Of a DNA stretch of 23,016 nucleotides, positions 7,329 to 19,120 are shown in pieces. This DNA is from a virus. The stretch covers positions 1-23,016 of IMG/VR virus record IMGVR_UViG_3300033997_000391; one strand, 5' to 3'. Position numbers and translations under genes: made by a program. The first letter of the stretch is position 1. Each line of letters opens with the position of its first letter. A model generated the notes under the pieces. The model was not told the origin of the DNA, searched no databases, and worked only from the letters and a program-made list of their open reading frames with translations.

Positions 7329-10300
7329 ATGAGCTTCGAGGTCGGTGACCTGTTGATCAGCCTGCGGGCGGACCTGGCGCGCTACCAGTCCGACATGCGC
7401 CAGGCTGTGGCCCTTACCACGGGGGCCGTCCGGCAGATCGAGGCCGGCGCCGATGCAGCGCGCCGCGCCCTGGGTGGCATTGGTGCCGGGCTGGCGGCCG
7501 GGCTGTCTGTGGTGGCCATCGGCAACTACACCCGCAACGTGCTCGCCGGCTTCGACGCCGTGAACGACTTGGCCGATGCCACGGGTGCCAGCGTGGACAA
7601 GCTGCTGCTGCTGCAGCGCCAGGCCGAGGCCGCCGGCGGCAGCCTGGACCAGGTGGGCGGCGTCATCGTCAAGCTCAACGCTAACCTGAAGGAGGCCAAC
7701 GGCATCAACGGCGTCAGCCAGGCGCTGAAGGCCATCGGCCTGGACGCCGACGAGCTGCGCCGCCTGGACCCGGCCGACGCCCTGCGGCGCGTGGCCGATG
7801 CCCTGGCCGGCTATGCCGACAACGGCAACAAGGCCCGCATCATCCAGGAGCTGTTCGGCAAGGGCGTGCGCGAGGCGGCCCCGCTGCTCAAGGACCTGGC
7901 CGAGCAGCAGCACCTGACCACGCGGGCCAGCGCCATGGCGGCCGAGGAGGTGGACCGGCTCAACAAGAGCGTGGCCCAGCTCAACGCCAGCGCGCTGGAT
8001 GCAAGCCGCAGCTTTGCGGGCCAGCTGGTGCCGGCGATCAATGGCTTGATCTATGCCGTGGAGGGGGATCCGCTGGACCCGCTGAGCCGCGGCCTGGGCA
8101 ACGTGGCCGAGCAAGGCAGCGCGGCCAAGGCCGTGGTGGGTGGCATTGGCGTGGTGCTGGAGTCTGTGGCGATCGTTGGCGCCACCGTCAGCAGCGCGCT
8201 CACGGGCATCGGACGCCAGCTTGGGGGCGTGGCTGCGCAGGCTGCATTGCTGGGTTCGGGCGACATGGCCGGGGCAGAGCGCGTCGGCGAGATGATGCGT
8301 GCCGACGCCGCTGCGGCCCGTGCCGAGTGGGACGCTTTCGTGGACCGCGTTGCAGGCTCCACCGAGCGGGCCATGCGCCCGCTGGTGGGGCCGGTGATGC
8401 CTGCGGGCATCAAGCCACCCGACAGCCGCCCCACGGTGCCCGACATTGCCACCAGCGCCGGCACCGACAGCACCACCACGCCCACCGCCGACGCCAAGCG
8501 CCGCGAGGCCGAGGCCCTGCGCAGCGCCCAGGATGCCGCCAAGGCCTATGGCGAAACCTGGACGCGGCTGCTGGAGATCGAGCAGCAGGCCACGCAGCAG
8601 ACGGGCAGCCTGAGCGCCGCCCAGAAGGTGCTGGCCGACTACCTGGGCAGCGAGGCCTACGCCACCGCCAGCGAGGCCACCCGCCAGCTCACCCTGGCCA
8701 AGGCCTACCAGGTGATCGAGACGGAGCGCCTGGCCGCGGCCGAGCGCGACCTGACCGCCGCCGGCATCGAGGGCCGCGCCAACCGCGTCGACCAGCTGCA
8801 GGCCGAGGCCGCCGCGCTGGAGGCGCAGGTGCGCCAGCAGCTGCAGGCCAACGAGGCGCTGGGCCTGGGCGGCCTGGCCCTGGCCCGGCTGGAGCAGGGC
8901 CGCACCCTGGACGCCGCCGCCGAGAAGGACCGCCTCGCTGCCATTGCCGACGGCGTGGACCCGGCCATCGCCGCCGAGTACCGCCGCCAGGCCCAGGGCC
9001 TGCGCGACCTGGCCGCCGCCCGCCAGGCCGGCGCCGACCGCCAGGCCGAGCTGGACCGCGCCACCGAGGTGGCCCGCGTCAACGACGCGCTGCGCCAGCG
9101 CGAGCAGGACGCCTGGCAACGCACCTACGACCAGCTGGGCCAAAGCCTGGCCGATGCCATCGTCAACGGCGGCAAGGGCGCGGGCGAGCTGCTGCGCAGC
9201 TACTTCCGGGGCCTTGTGCTGCAGCCCGTGGTGCGCGCCGTGGGGGGCGCCCTGGGCGGCGCGCTGGGGCTGCCGGCCGTGGCCTCGGCCAGCACCGGTG
9301 TGGGCGGCGGCGGCCTGGGCGGGCTGGGTGACCTGGCCGGGCTGGCCCGGCTGATCAGCAACCCGGGCGCCGCGCTCGATGCGGGCAATGCCTCGCTGCT
9401 GGGCAGCGTCAGCGGCTTCAGCAGCTTCCTCACTGAGGCGGGCTTCGCCGGCGGCGGCAGCTTCTTCTCCGGCATCGGCCAGGGCCTGCAGCAGGGCCTG
9501 GGCGGCATTGCGGATGCCACCAGCAGCCTCTTCCAGCTGGGGCAGGCCGCGGGCTCGGTGGCGCCTTACCTGGGCAGCATCGCCAGCCTGCTGAGCGGCG
9601 ACGTGAAGGGCGCGGCGCTGGGCGCGGCGGGCACCTACATCGGCTCGCTGGCGGGCCCGCTGGGTGCGCTGGCCGGCGGCTTGATCGGCCAGACGCTGGG
9701 CGGGCTGATCGGCAGCGACGACCCGTACAACGTCGGCGCGGCCTACACCATCAACGCCGCCGGCCAGGGCCGCCGGCCCACGGACCGGGCCTTCTTTGCT
9801 GAGTCTGGGCTGACCCGCAGCCAGGTCGGATTCGAGGACTACACCAAGCGCCGCAGCGATGAGCTGGACAGCGCTGCGAAGACCCTGGCCGAGGCGCTGT
9901 ACGGCACCTATGCCGACCTGGCCCAGCGCTTCGGCCGAGAGGCTCAGGCGCTCACCATCGGCTTCCGGGCCAACGGCGAAAAGGCCAGCGGCAACATCGT
10001 GCTGGGCGATAGCAACATCGTCTTCAAGACGGGCGAGGACGACCCGGCCAAGGCCTTCGCCGCCTTTGCTGACCGGGCCGGGGGTGCCATCGTCGAGGCC
10101 TTGCGCAAGGCAGGCTTGCCCGCCTGGGCGCAGGAGATCCTGGACGCAGTGGACGCCAGCCAAGGCGCGGAGGCCCTGCAAGCTGCTGCCGGCACCATCG
10201 CGCAGATCATGGGTATGGCGCAGGCGCTGCGCGCGCTGCCCAGCAGCAACCTGGCCGAGCTGACGGAGGCTCAGGTGCTGAGCTTGGCCGAATACGCTGG

Positions 10301-16139: not shown

Positions 16140-17246
16140 ATGGCAATCTCAGTGCAGCAGCGCGGGCAGCGGTGGCAGTTGCGGGTGACGCACAAGCTGC
16201 TGGCCCGGCCCTTCTTCTTCACGTTCGACGGCGAGGCCGAGGCGCGCGACTACGGCGTGCAGCTCACGCGCATGCTGCAGGCCGGCATCGTGCCGGCGGA
16301 GCTGCTGGAGCGGCGCGAGCGGCCGGCCGAAGACCCGACCCTGGCCGAGCTGATCCGCGGCTACACCAAGGGCTACGCGGCGCTGACGCCGAGCGATGAG
16401 GCCCTGCTCGGCACGATGCTGGGCGAGCTGACGGGCGTGCGGCGCAGCCATGTGACCTATGCCTGGGCCGAGGCTTACGTGCGCCGCCTGAAGACGGTGG
16501 GCCACTACAGCCCGGGCACGATCCGCAAGCGCGTGGGTGCGCTGGCCCGGGTGATCGACTGGCATGCTCGCACAACCGAAAGCACGCTGGCCAATGCGCT
16601 GCGGGCCCTGCCGCGCGGGTACAGCCAGTACACCGCGACCGACGCGGCGGCCCTGCCGGCCGGCAAGGCGCCGCGGCAGGACGTGCAGCGCGACCGCCGG
16701 CTGCTGCCGGGGGAAGAGGCCAAGATCCGCGCGGCCCTGGCGCACGATGCGGACCTGCGCAGCCTGTTCGACACGATCTTGGCGACCGGCCTGCGCCTGC
16801 GCGAGGCTTATCGCCTGCGGGTGGACCAGGTGGACATGGAGCGCGGCATCCTGCGCGTGGAGGGCAGCAAGGGCGTGCGCGGGGCGCTGCGGCCGCGCAC
16901 GGTGCCGCTGCTGCACTGGGTGCGCCCGGTGCTGGCCGAGCGGGTGCAGGGCCGGGTGGGGCTGCTGTGGCCGTGGTGGTCAGGCGACCCGGGCCAGCTC
17001 GATGCAGTGACGGCGCACCTGAGCCGCTGCTTCGCCCAGGCCTTCCGGGCCGCGGGCGCGGCCGGGCTGACGGAGCATGACCTGAGGCATGAGGCCACCT
17101 GCCGGTGGTTCGAGCTGCGCGACCCGGCGGGACGCTGGGTGTTTTCGGACGTGGAGGTCTGTCGAATCATGGGCTGGTCGACGCCGAGGATGGCGCTGCG
17201 GTATGCCAGCCTCCGGGGGGAGGATCTGGCGGCGCGGTTGGGGTGA
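16140..17246 (+). CDS. int: Tyrosine recombinase, phage integrase
   Basis: This 368-residue protein catalyses site-specific recombination between phage and host attachment sites. The N-terminal arm-binding part (residues 1-60) is followed by a SAM-like core-binding domain (about 65-180). In the catalytic domain I see Arg219 in ATGLRLREAY, Lys244 in EGSKG, His313-x-x-Arg316 in EHDLRHEA, Trp346 in the usual His/Trp position (MGWST) and the nucleophile Tyr355 in ALRYASLRG. The catalytic set is complete. The attP-like tRNA-Cys core lies just upstream, the usual pairing, so the target is probably the 3' end of a host tRNA-Cys gene. It lacks an obvious integron-integrase-specific insertion, so it is not a good candidate for the enzyme behind the attC-like sites downstream. 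It converges with the leftward operon. Confidence 0.92.
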   Translation: MAISVQQRGQRWQLRVTHKLLARPFFFTFDGEAEARDYGVQLTRMLQAGIVPAELLERRERPAEDPTLAELIRGYTKGYAALTPSDEALLGTMLGELTGVRRSHVTYAWAEAYVRRLKTVGHYSPGTIRKRVGALARVIDWHARTTESTLANALRALPRGYSQYTATDAAALPAGKAPRQDVQRDRRLLPGEEAKIRAALAHDADLRSLFDTILATGLRLREAYRLRVDQVDMERGILRVEGSKGVRGALRPRTVPLLHWVRPVLAERVQGRVGLLWPWWSGDPGQLDAVTAHLSRCFAQAFRAAGAAGLTEHDLRHEATCRWFELRDPAGRWVFSDVEVCRIMGWSTPRMALRYASLRGEDLAARLG

Positions 17247-17258
17247 GCGGGTGTGCGT

Positions 17259-17285
17259 GTTAGGCGGCTGGTTGTGCCGTCTAAC
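17259..17285. terminator. Hairpin between convergent genes, possible two-way terminator
   Basis: GTTAGGCGG (17259-17267) pairs with CCGTCTAAC (17277-17285), one pair being G-T, around a 9-nt loop. It lies between the int stop (17246) and the end of the leftward gene, whose TAG is inside the 3' arm. There is no T tract. The arms contain the same GTTRRRY/RYYYAAC boxes as the attC-like sites further right, so it may instead be the remnant of a recombination site. Confidence 0.4.
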
Positions 17286-17541
17286 GCACGTTAGGCCGCA
17301 GCCCACCATACCTGTCGCCCGCAAAGGGCGGGTCCAGCGTGAACCCGTTGGCGAGGATGTCGCACACCACAATGCGCTCGGGGTCGCGCATGCTGCTTTG
17401 CCAGGCTTGGAGCGCATCGCAGCGGCGCTTGTAGAACGCGGCGGTGTCTCGCAGTTCCTTCAGTTCTTCCAGCGCGGCCAGCGTGTCGCCAGCGTGGCCC
17501 AGCTCTTCGCACAGCCGCGCTGCCCGAAGCATGCGGCGCAT
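17281..17541 (-). CDS. Unknown small protein, last gene of the leftward operon
   Basis: This 86-residue protein starts MRRMLRAARLCEELG at 17541, 17 nt after the attC-like site ends. A longer reading (start at 17622) would run through the attC-like palindrome, so I prefer the shorter one. The body is helical (AALEELKELRDTAAFYKRRC, then DALQAWQSSMRDPERIVVCD) and ends with the G-D-R-Y-G-G-L-R-P-N-V-R tail. I recall similar small proteins of unknown function in Burkholderiales accessory regions, but cannot verify this here. No catalytic motif is visible. The stop codon falls next to an RYYYAAC box (17290-17296), as for the neighbouring cassette-like genes. Confidence 0.6.
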   Translation of the reverse strand: MRRMLRAARLCEELGHAGDTLAALEELKELRDTAAFYKRRCDALQAWQSSMRDPERIVVCDILANGFTLDPPFAGDRYGGLRPNVR

Positions 17542-17558
17542 ATTCGGCCCGGCGAGCG

Positions 17559-17654
17559 GCCTAACCCCTCGGTCAACCGGAGAGCCGCCGGCAGCGGTTG
17601 TGGTGTTGTCGTCAGTCTGCATGGGGCGTCTCCCGGTTACCTCGAACGTTGGGC
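17559..17654 (-). repeat. attC-like recombination site 1
   Basis: On the minus strand the 96 bp begin with GCCCAAC (RYYYAAC box, 17654-17648) and end with GTTAGGC (GTTRRRY box, 17565-17559). Inside, L-type boxes at 17625-17641 and 17571-17589 pair as GGT/ACC, AACCGG/CCGGTT, AGA/TCT and CGCC/GGCG, with single unpaired bases between the blocks. The spacers are 6 and 5 nt. This is the layout of an integron attC site, including extrahelical bases. It starts 1 nt after the stop of the upstream gene. Confidence 0.6.
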
Positions 17655-17655
17655 G

Positions 17656-18042
17656 TCATGCGGCGCACGTCACTTCACCGGCCAGCGGCAGCGGGGTTTT
17701 GTCCTCGTCGCCATCGATCCAGTTGCACGGCGTGCCTTCCAGCGCTAACTTCGCCACGCGGCCGTTCTCCACCATCGTGGTGCTGTCCTCGCGCCCGCTG
17801 CAGAGCCAGTTCTGCGGCTCGCCGCTCACGCTGTCGAATTCCTCGCTCTCGTCCAGGTGGTAGTGCTCGCCTCGGCCGTAGAACCGCAACGCGGTGCGCA
17901 GCATCGCAATCTCGTCCAGCGCAGCCTTCAGCGCGTGGGCGCCTTGGTCAATCAGATCGTCGTCGCGGTGTAGCGTCTCGCTAACGCGCACGCGGCAGGC
18001 CACGTCCAGCAGCTTGCGGGGCAGTTCCTTGGTCGTCGTCAT
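17656..18042 (-). CDS. Unknown protein, gene of a cassette-like unit
   Basis: This 128-residue protein has a strong Shine-Dalgarno sequence (AGGAAGGA) just before the ATG at 18042, which sets the start. It is acidic and mostly helical at first (KELPRKLLDVACRVRVSETL, HALKAALDEIAMLRTALRFY), followed by a loop-rich part with Tyr, Trp, His and acidic residues (GRGEHYHLDESEEFDSVSGE, PQNWLCSG, CNWIDGDEDKTPL). I do not recognise the family. The gene lies exactly between two attC-like sites: the upstream one ends 27 nt before the ATG and the downstream one starts 1 nt after the TGA. That is the build of a single-gene integron cassette of about 510 bp. Confidence 0.7.
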   Translation of the reverse strand: MTTTKELPRKLLDVACRVRVSETLHRDDDLIDQGAHALKAALDEIAMLRTALRFYGRGEHYHLDESEEFDSVSGEPQNWLCSGREDSTTMVENGRVAKLALEGTPCNWIDGDEDKTPLPLAGEVTCAA

Positions 18043-18068
18043 CGTCCTTCCTCTCGCTCCGGCACCAG

Positions 18069-18140
18069 GCCGAACTGGCGGGTCAACCGGACCCGCTACG
18101 GTGTCCCGCCTACGCGGGCCCTTTACCCTTTTCGTTGTGC
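18069..18140 (-). repeat. attC-like recombination site 2
   Basis: On the minus strand the 72 bp run from GCACAAC (18140-18134) to GTTCGGC (18075-18069), each one base off the R-box consensus. The L-type boxes (18114-18127 and 18081-18096) pair over GGT/ACC, AA/TT, GG/CC and CCCGC/GCGGG with unpaired bases between. Spacers of 6 and 5 nt equal those of site 1. The 11-mer TCCGGTTGACC is identical in both sites. A small hairpin (18105-18109 with 18114-18118) lies in the centre. Confidence 0.5.
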
Positions 18141-18313
18141 TGCAAGAGCAGCCGCAGTTGTTCGGCCACCGCCTCAAGCTCTGCGCGGCCCACGATGTAG
18201 GCGGCGCCGGCATCGCAGCCGTGCTCCAGCAGCATCTCCGGCTGTCCTTGCCGCACGCGGAAGTACGCCGTGCTGTGCGCCAGCCGCAGGGTGGTTTCGG
18301 CCAGCTGAGTCAG
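18110..18313 (-). CDS. Small ORF with a CTG start coupled to the upstream gene
   Basis: A 67-codon frame starts at a CTG that overlaps the upstream TGA as CTGA, mimicking the ATGA couplings used elsewhere here. It reads TQLAETTLRLAHSTAYFRVR then QGQPEMLLEHGCDAGAAYIV and GRAELEAVAEQLRLLLQHNE, protein-like with a balanced composition. No ATG or GTG exists near its beginning; an internal GTG or ATG would give 48 or 41 residues. Its stop lies inside attC-like site 2. Function is unknown, and the non-canonical start is a guess from the overlap. Confidence 0.4.
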   Translation of the reverse strand: MTQLAETTLRLAHSTAYFRVRQGQPEMLLEHGCDAGAAYIVGRAELEAVAEQLRLLLQHNEKGKGPA

Positions 18314-18753
18314 GAGCGCCCCAGCGCAGCCATCACGCCCTGAAGGCGGCCGCCGCGCTCCAGCTCGGCCAGCTTGGTCAGCGCATCGGCCAGGCGCTCC
18401 ACCTGCGCCAGCCGGGACTCGAAGTCCTGCCCTAGCAGGCGGTTCACGCGGGCCAGCGAGTCGCCGAGCTGGGCGGCCGTGTCTTTGGCCCGGCCCACTG
18501 CGGCTTTCGCCTTCTCGCTGGTGCTCTTCTCGGCCGCCATGAGCCCATCGAGTGCCGCCTCCATGCGTTGCGCGGCTGCGGTCAGTTCGGTGGCGGCGGT
18601 GTCGTACTCGCCAGCGGTGTGCTTGTAGGCCATGGCAATCCTTCTCGGTAGGTTGGTCATCACCGCGTCGGTGACGGTGCTGCGCCGAAAGCCGGCGCCT
18701 TGGGTTTCTGCGGTGCGCGCGGTCTTCTCGCGCAGCGCGGCTTGTAGGTTCAT
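18310..18753 (-). CDS. Unknown helical protein
   Basis: This 147-residue protein starts MNLQAALREKTARTAET at 18753, with AGGAG five nt upstream. Two other starts are possible in the same frame: an ATG at 18828, 7 nt after the upstream stop but without a Shine-Dalgarno sequence, and an ATG at 18633 (MAYKHTAGEYD) with AAGGA before it. From MAYK onwards the protein is almost all helix, with Ala, Lys, Glu and Leu in coiled-coil style (AATELTAAAQRMEAALDGLM, SEKAKAAVGRAKDTAAQLGD, RLAQVERLADALTKLAELER). No known motif is seen. The 82-nt gap to the HTH gene on its upstream side holds nothing else I can support. Confidence 0.6.
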   Translation of the reverse strand: MNLQAALREKTARTAETQGAGFRRSTVTDAVMTNLPRRIAMAYKHTAGEYDTAATELTAAAQRMEAALDGLMAAEKSTSEKAKAAVGRAKDTAAQLGDSLARVNRLLGQDFESRLAQVERLADALTKLAELERGGRLQGVMAALGRS

Positions 18754-18835
18754 GCGTGCTCCTGTGCTCCTTGTTGACGCGCTGGTCTCCGTGTTCATGA
18801 ACCGGCGGCCCGCTTGGTGCTGGCTCATGCTGGCG

Positions 18836-19120
18836 TCACGCCCGCACATCCACCAGCCGCGGCGGCTGCCGCCTGGCGCGGCGCGTGGGGTGGGCGGCGG
18901 CCACTGCGGCCGGGGCGGGGCTGGGTTGGCGGCGCTGCTGGGCGGCCTGCAGGGCCAGCTCGTTGAGGCGCTGGGCCAGCGCAGCGGCCGGGAAGACCCA
19001 GCCGCGCCCGAACTGCAGGCCGGGCAAGTCGCCGGCGCGGGCGCGGGCCTCGACGGTGTCGGGGCCGCAGTCCAGCAGGGCGGCGACCTGGGCGGTGGTC
19101 AGGGCGATGGGCTCAGTCAT
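18836..19120 (-). CDS. Small helix-turn-helix protein, excisionase/AlpA-like
   Basis: This 94-residue protein carries a compact MerR-type winged helix at its start: L-T-T-A-Q-V-A-A-L-L-D-C-G-P-D-T-V followed by EARARAGDLPGLQFGRGWVF and PAAALAQRLNEL. This is the pattern of the excisionase (HTH_17) family, small DNA-binding proteins that bend att DNA or act as regulators. The tail after residue 65 is Pro/Ala/Arg-rich and probably disordered. The start at 19120 overlaps the upstream gene by 8 nt. Being in the int-proximal part of the leftward operon, it is the best candidate for a recombination directionality factor. Acting as a transcription regulator is the alternative. Confidence 0.7.
   Translation of the reverse strand: MTEPIALTTAQVAALLDCGPDTVEARARAGDLPGLQFGRGWVFPAAALAQRLNELALQAAQQRRQPSPAPAAVAAAHPTRRARRQPPRLVDVRA

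Follow-up and report, generated by a model that had tools for sequence, protein, structure and literature searches.

The 23,016-nt stretch analyzed here (the window, a complete IMG/VR virus record) belongs to a temperate phage, probably of a betaproteobacterial host, and between its integrase and excisionase genes it carries genuine integron attC sites, one far beyond chance and a second that is marginal by model. We consider it probable that these sites delimit a short CALIN-like array of integron-type cassettes whose genes are reversed, and that the cassettes are moved between phages by an integron integrase (IntI) and expressed from a phage operon. Five observations form the basis for this reading: the identity of the attC sites, the polarity of the genes relative to them, a start codon embedded in an attC, cassettes shared among other phages with R' boxes as their limits, and IntI genes in relatives.

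Tail, endolysin and integrase genes occupy the plus strand of the window, and a leftward early region occupies the minus strand. The integrase is 43–58% identical to integrases on 10 IMG/VR contigs. In nine related loci the stop codons of int and xis lie −18 to +8 nt apart, and in a tenth locus (L012) the distance is 222 nt; in the window xis is displaced from int by 1,589 nt, with an inserted stretch between them, and in the array-bearing locus L007 the stop codons are 1,776 nt apart. The inserted stretch in both the window and L007 begins near a lone GTTAGGC shortly 3' of int, and the copy at position 17290 of the window is presumed to be the left boundary of the cassette array. Insertion of a first cassette at this lone G^TT would be explained by non-classical insertion at attG sites. 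As a candidate attI beside int, the motif was rejected; it scores about 0 as an attC right arm, and we therefore call it a core site only. Between the int stop codon and this core site lies a hairpin formed by inverted GTTRRRY motifs, and in phage TJE1 a similar, terminator-like inverted GTTRRRY is reported beside a CALIN (PMC9892861). Searches of the window against Rfam and for tRNA genes gave no match.

Such motifs beside int could also be taken to mean that the phage's own tyrosine integrase recognizes attC-like sites, its attP resembling attC, and that the array arose by faulty integration into host integrons. The GTTAGGC directly behind int in the window and L007 and the inverted-repeat hairpin in the window are compatible with this proposal. 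However, such motifs are absent behind int in most relatives that have the same integrase, some arrays lie apart from int, as in L006, and others are found in phages whose gene contexts differ, and the window integrase is not IntI-like: it scores 25 bits against the integron integrase profile TIGR02249, for which the cut-off is 265. We regard this origin as very improbable. The same score upholds the statement of the first-pass annotation that no integron integrase is visible on the contig, and relatives that have the same phage integrase or an array of the same kind do encode IntI.

To identify attC sites, we gathered IntI loci from plasmids and bacterial genomes and extracted 142 attCs from them by iterative matrix search. 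A two-arm position-weight matrix was trained only on attCs of IntI loci, and a covariance model was built from 48 bacterial attCs of such loci; these replaced a first, purely structural scanner, which had scored shuffled sequences up to 38 against 41 for site 1. The covariance model matches the window exactly twice, at 17559–17654 and 18069–18140, the same coordinates at which the first-pass annotation had recognized two imperfect palindromes. Its suggestion of an attC model search thus bore out site 1 clearly (51.6 bits, E = 3.5e-10) and site 2 marginally (14.8 bits, E = 0.077). On the matrix, site 1 reaches 52.7 bits, ranking 19th among the 142 true attCs, and site 2 reaches 15.5 bits, with 9.9 bits for the next best position anywhere in the window; in 1.38 Mb of dinucleotide shuffles the top score was 15.9, and the site 2 level was reached once.

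Site 1 has the full attC-type order that had been read from the letters alone, including RYYYAAC/GTTRRRY boxes, spacers of 5 and 6 nt and an unpaired base. Its boxes, R'' = GCCTAAC and R' = GTTGGGC, show no consensus mismatch and pair at 7/7 positions, one of them a G-T pair; the spacers are CCCTC (5 nt) and TCGAAC (6 nt), and the arms are L'' = GGT[C]AACCGG, with one extrahelical C, and L' = CCGGTTACC. A repeat finder run on the window did not list the attC sites because of the bulge in the arms. The 11-mer noted as common to the two sites is the conserved attC L'' arm; considered as a promoter or operator, it has no −10 element and is fully accounted for as this arm. Over 112 nt, site 1 is 92% identical to an attC of phage contig L127, behind which stands a different gene, and it is likely still active for recombination. 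At site 2 each box is one base off (GCCGAAC/GTTGTGC), as the earlier reading held, the L' arm is damaged, and the best fold of the sequence is a different, strong hairpin. An 87-nt match at 86% identity to a phage attC with better boxes (L160:9388–9458) suggests that site 2 is a damaged relative of that site, and its continued activity is doubtful.

The strong hairpin at site 2 is what one might expect if the palindromes were products of chance or transcription terminators, an explanation that the E value refutes for site 1 and that shuffles, co-variation and family-wide conservation also oppose; we find it scarcely credible. Diverged palindromes that do not co-vary, the outcome first named as contrary to an integron origin, are not what the wider data contain. 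Across 223 phage attCs the L'' and L' arms co-vary strongly (one position, for example, is paired in 93%, versus 51% in shuffles), and 208 of these sites retain the extrahelical C.

Features of the window and phage-encoded IntI genes of other loci (positions are those of the window unless a locus is named)
Feature	Position	Strand	Basis
Phage tyrosine integrase (int), not an integron integrase	16140–17246	+	Pfam PF00589, PHROG_1 integrase
Hairpin from inverted GTTRRRY motifs (GTTAGGCGGC...GCCGTCTAAC), directly 3' of int stop	17253–17289	.	Sequence, fold
Gene 1, start and first codons within site 1 (leader MQTDDNTTTAAGGSPVDRGVRPL)	17281–17622	−	Coding score, homology
Lone core site G^TTAGGC	17290–17296	+	Sequence
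Cassette A (358 nt), reversed gene 1 and site 1	17291–17648	+	R' to R' sequence, boundary rule from shared phage cassettes
attC site 1, a canonical site of betaproteobacterial type with + as its top strand	17559–17654	+	Covariance model, matrix, sequence
Shine-Dalgarno-like GGGAG in L' arm of site 1, 7 nt before ATG 17622	17630–17634	−	Sequence
Cassette B (486 nt), reversed gene 2 and site 2	17649–18134	+	R' to R' sequence, boundary rule from shared phage cassettes
Gene 2 (128 aa)	17656–18042	−	Coding score, homologues
attC site 2, decayed	18069–18140	+	Covariance model, matrix, L160 similarity
Gene 3, small ORF ending inside site 2	18110–18313	−	Weak coding score
Gene 4 (179 aa), between site 2 and xis	18310–18849	−	Strong coding score
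Excisionase (xis, HTH_17)	18836–19120	−	PF12728, PHROG_1840
Phage-encoded IntI genes	L006:7472–8509 (minus strand); L179:3714–4694; L183:85–1101; contig end of L157/L180		

The window holds a clear attC and, about 415 nt from it, a decayed one; the contig has no intI. A cassette of 510 bp had been proposed between them; 510 is indeed the R''-to-R'' distance, but the unit between the integrase cut points runs from R' to R' (17649–18134) and measures 486 nt. A second copy of the window's cassettes, or their exact presence and absence in a close relative, was not found; analogous pairs were. Genes 1 and 2 match no named family, and gene 4 matches none at E < 0.001. Homologues of gene 2 occur in phages Cruim01, L004 and L013 and in an attC-bounded cassette of phage L140. 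The frame of gene 3 has no ATG, GTG or TTG at its beginning, and it may be a remnant or a gene with a rare start.

Gene 1 most likely begins at the ATG at 17622, within site 1. Its body resembles proteins of L015 and L016 only from residue 44–47 onward, that is, behind the attC-encoded leader, and L127 shares the leader only (96% over residues 1–24). Shared N-terminal leaders encoded by attCs, of PVDRGVRP and LSEGLGP types in two frames, precede unrelated proteins, for example in the window (17622–17560), L179, L180 and L127.

The halves of an attC differ, with spacers of 5 and 6 nt and the extrahelical C on the left, and each site therefore has a direction. Read in reverse, site 1 falls from 52.7 to 7.8 bits on the matrix, and polarity calls were unambiguous for 582 sites, the smallest margin being 13.6 bits. 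Integron cassettes usually, though not strictly necessarily, carry a gene in the same direction as their attC. In the window the two directions are opposed: the top strand of both attCs is the plus strand, and coding scores and homology place genes 1, 2 and 4 on the minus strand. The first-pass annotation had assigned the genes to the minus strand correctly but missed both their opposition to the attC top strand and the probable start of gene 1 inside site 1. The same arrangement, good attCs on the plus strand and genes on the minus strand, is found in L006 and L007, whose integrases are 57% and 55% identical to that of the window.

The left arm GCCTAACCCCTCGNTCAANC was present in 68 stretches of IMG/VR, the majority of which hold several attCs in an array, and an independent right-arm search yielded 81 stretches, 54 of which were new. 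The direction of each cassette was taken from the best coding ORF between neighboring sites, as ranked by a simple coding score. Phage cassette genes ran against the attC in 206 cases and with it in 1 in the left-arm set, and in 127 cases against 1 in the right-arm set, giving 333 reversed cassettes among 335 scored and 2 in the same direction. Bacterial integron loci showed the opposite, with 69 cassette genes running with the attC and 2 against it (Fisher p = 5e-73, to be read with the caveat that cassettes within one contig are not independent). At the level of loci, all but two of those with scorable cassettes contain reversed genes only. The two phage cassettes scored as same-direction are L207:3315–4229 and L159:3010–3615. 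A Terminase_6N or portal match is present in 19 of 50 array-bearing contigs, and the environmental phages with reversed cassettes, that of the window among them, form a large and apparently undescribed group.

This polarity largely refutes the idea that the phage took up ordinary bacterial integron cassettes by chance (333/335 reversed in phages versus 2/71 in bacteria). The attCs are of betaproteobacterial type with arms close to host attCs, and TJE1, a phage of the set of Qi et al., has cassette genes in the same direction as the attC, both as chance uptake would have it. Yet relatives in 85 IntI loci exist for no more than a handful of the 235 phage cassette proteins, and the recognizable gene content of the cassettes is phage-like, which leaves such uptake very improbable. 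Of the two origins first suggested, integron-type cassettes as such are supported, but the cassettes are inverted, so that a capture of ordinary cassettes from a host does not describe them; the better fit is a device for swapping small accessory genes, here turned against their attC. The 125 cassette proteins are very diverse and include DNA methyltransferases, a dNMP phosphatase, an RNA ligase, helicases and one Acb2/Tad1-like match; the methyltransferases and the Acb2/Tad1-type match point to anti-defense cargo.

Embedded starts like that of gene 1 occur in about half of the long phage attCs. Among attCs of at least 80 nt, a Shine-Dalgarno sequence and start codon lie inside the site and read out through R'' into an open frame in 70 of 129 phage sites, compared with 3 of 56 bacterial attCs and 1 of 129 phage sites on the opposite strand. 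In other phage attCs, the Shine-Dalgarno sequence and start stand just behind the site rather than inside it.

Evidence that cassettes may move as units comes from a comparison among phages, in which 231 cassettes formed 188 clusters. Cassette c1 is 99.5% identical over 394 nt between L109/L121 and L131/L174, where its neighbors differ; c25 (99.6% over 472 nt) and c0 (78% over 351 nt) are likewise common to different neighborhoods. In these clearest cases the shared blocks start and stop at R' boxes, which is the canonical integron unit. Between L161 on one side and L131 and L174 on the other, one exact 373-nt unit of attC plus gene is absent or present with identical flanks, and here the break falls at the R'' box; homologous recombination therefore probably also acts. 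Both this R'' break and the match to L127 confined to the attC fit homologous recombination between similar sites as well. Two left attC half-sites (GCCTAAC...) without a right half, at L006:10558 and 10877, are possible relics of lost cassettes.

These same observations lend some weight to a different explanation, namely that the sites derive from integrons but are now kept for a role in RNA, forming hairpins that bear the ribosome-binding site or control access to it, insulate neighboring genes of the early operon and spread among phages by homologous recombination. Besides the start signals inside the hairpin in 70/129 long sites, the L161/L174 break at R'' and the attC-only sharing between the window and L127, it would accommodate the absence of IntI from most contigs. 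An RNA hairpin would not need the R' and R'' boxes, the 5/6 spacers or the extrahelical C, however, and all are kept; the start lies outside the site in many phage attCs, shared cassettes stop at R' boxes amid otherwise unrelated flanks, and some phages encode IntI beside the array. On balance we think this explanation unlikely.

IntI genes above the profile cut-off were found in 3 of 50 array-bearing contigs, many of which are incomplete: G003 (L006), G024 and G049, the last cut by the contig end. In L006 the gene neighbors xis, in L179 it neighbors int, and in L157/L180 it lies at the contig end. In a tree of IntI proteins the full phage IntIs of L006 and L179 and their relative L183 form one group (UFboot 99). 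The geometry of intI and attC in the IntI phages is normal and the genes alone are turned, which gives cassette genes and intI a common direction; in L179 a GTTAGCC core lies about 40 nt before intI. With no IntI on the contig of the window, movement of its cassettes would need IntI in trans, and the same applies to most other contigs. Virus Rctr41k (L021), which has an IntI-like gene, contained no convincing attCs of the window type; near that gene, at 8415–8545 and 8686–8813, are long inverted repeats ending in GTTAGGC/GTTAGCC that are unlike the attCs described here.

In the reading that we favor, integron-type cassettes would have entered the interval between the int and xis genes of a temperate phage, each running from just behind the G of G^TT in one R' box up to the corresponding G of the following R' box and bearing its attC at the plus-strand end. 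The turned gene would read with the leftward early operon of the phage, and the attC of cassette A would supply a ribosome-binding site and start codon. IntI, provided by the host or by a related phage, would act on the folded bottom strand and move cassettes between phages, and small accessory genes could in this way be swapped within the operon without loss of transcription or translation. We infer IntI as the agent, expression from the phage operon and the continued activity of the window's sites. Counting against this explanation, only one of the two sites in the window is good, the other being decayed, its 23 kb contain no IntI, and IntI is present in only 3 of the 50 contigs. We also lean, with somewhat less confidence, toward a general proposal: widespread phages run an inverted integron, in which the attC acts as 5' translation start, cassettes face the phage operon, and host or phage IntI swaps anti-defense and other accessory genes among phages and into bacterial integrons.

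Several known systems share parts of this organization. The available text of Qi et al. 2023 (PMC9892861) reports attCs and integrons in 21 phages and recombination of phage attCs by IntI1 in E. coli; as described there, those phage CALINs and integrons, like the arrays here, have attCs with or without IntI, small ORFs between the sites and DNA methyltransferase genes. That text describes no genes inverted relative to attC and does not analyze direction, whereas here a large group of betaproteobacterial type has inverted genes and start codons inside attCs. Sedentary chromosomal integrons of Betaproteobacteria (loci L046–L108) have the same attC type, R' and R'' boxes, 5/6 spacers and extrahelical C, and their intI and attCs are placed relative to each other as in the three IntI phages. 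Unlike in the phages, their genes share the direction of the attC and point away from intI, the attC follows the gene, and the start is almost never inside the attC. In the "reverse" integrons of Treponema it is intI that is turned relative to the cassettes, not the gene inside the cassette; both systems show an unusual direction, but here it is the gene that is turned, and intI and attC lie in their ordinary arrangement. The reversed, start-embedding attC architecture appears to be new, a provisional assessment, as our literature search, which found no description of the reversed form, covered sources other than subscription papers and preprints.

Gene capture by integrons is known from bacteria, and the mosaicism of phage genes is usually ascribed to illegitimate or homologous recombination. 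If our interpretation is correct, the inverted-cassette system of phages would be a site-specific route for exchanging single accessory genes between them. Inversion would explain how cassette genes are expressed from the phage operon, and a start codon inside the attC would make a cassette self-sufficient for translation.

A gene running against its attC would, in addition, be a simple mark for tracing phage genes in bacterial integrons, and we found two candidates, either of which could be phage sequence contaminating a MAG bin. Both are reversed, phage-type cassettes that adjoin intI, with the gene facing it; the first cassette position is the expected place of the newest acquisitions. In a Dechloromonas MAG (L075, 1590–1985) the cassette encodes a small protein with 39% identity to a cassette of phage L180, and in an Accumulibacter MAG (L091, 1571–2194) it encodes an MT-A70 methyltransferase with 78% protein identity to an L180 cassette.
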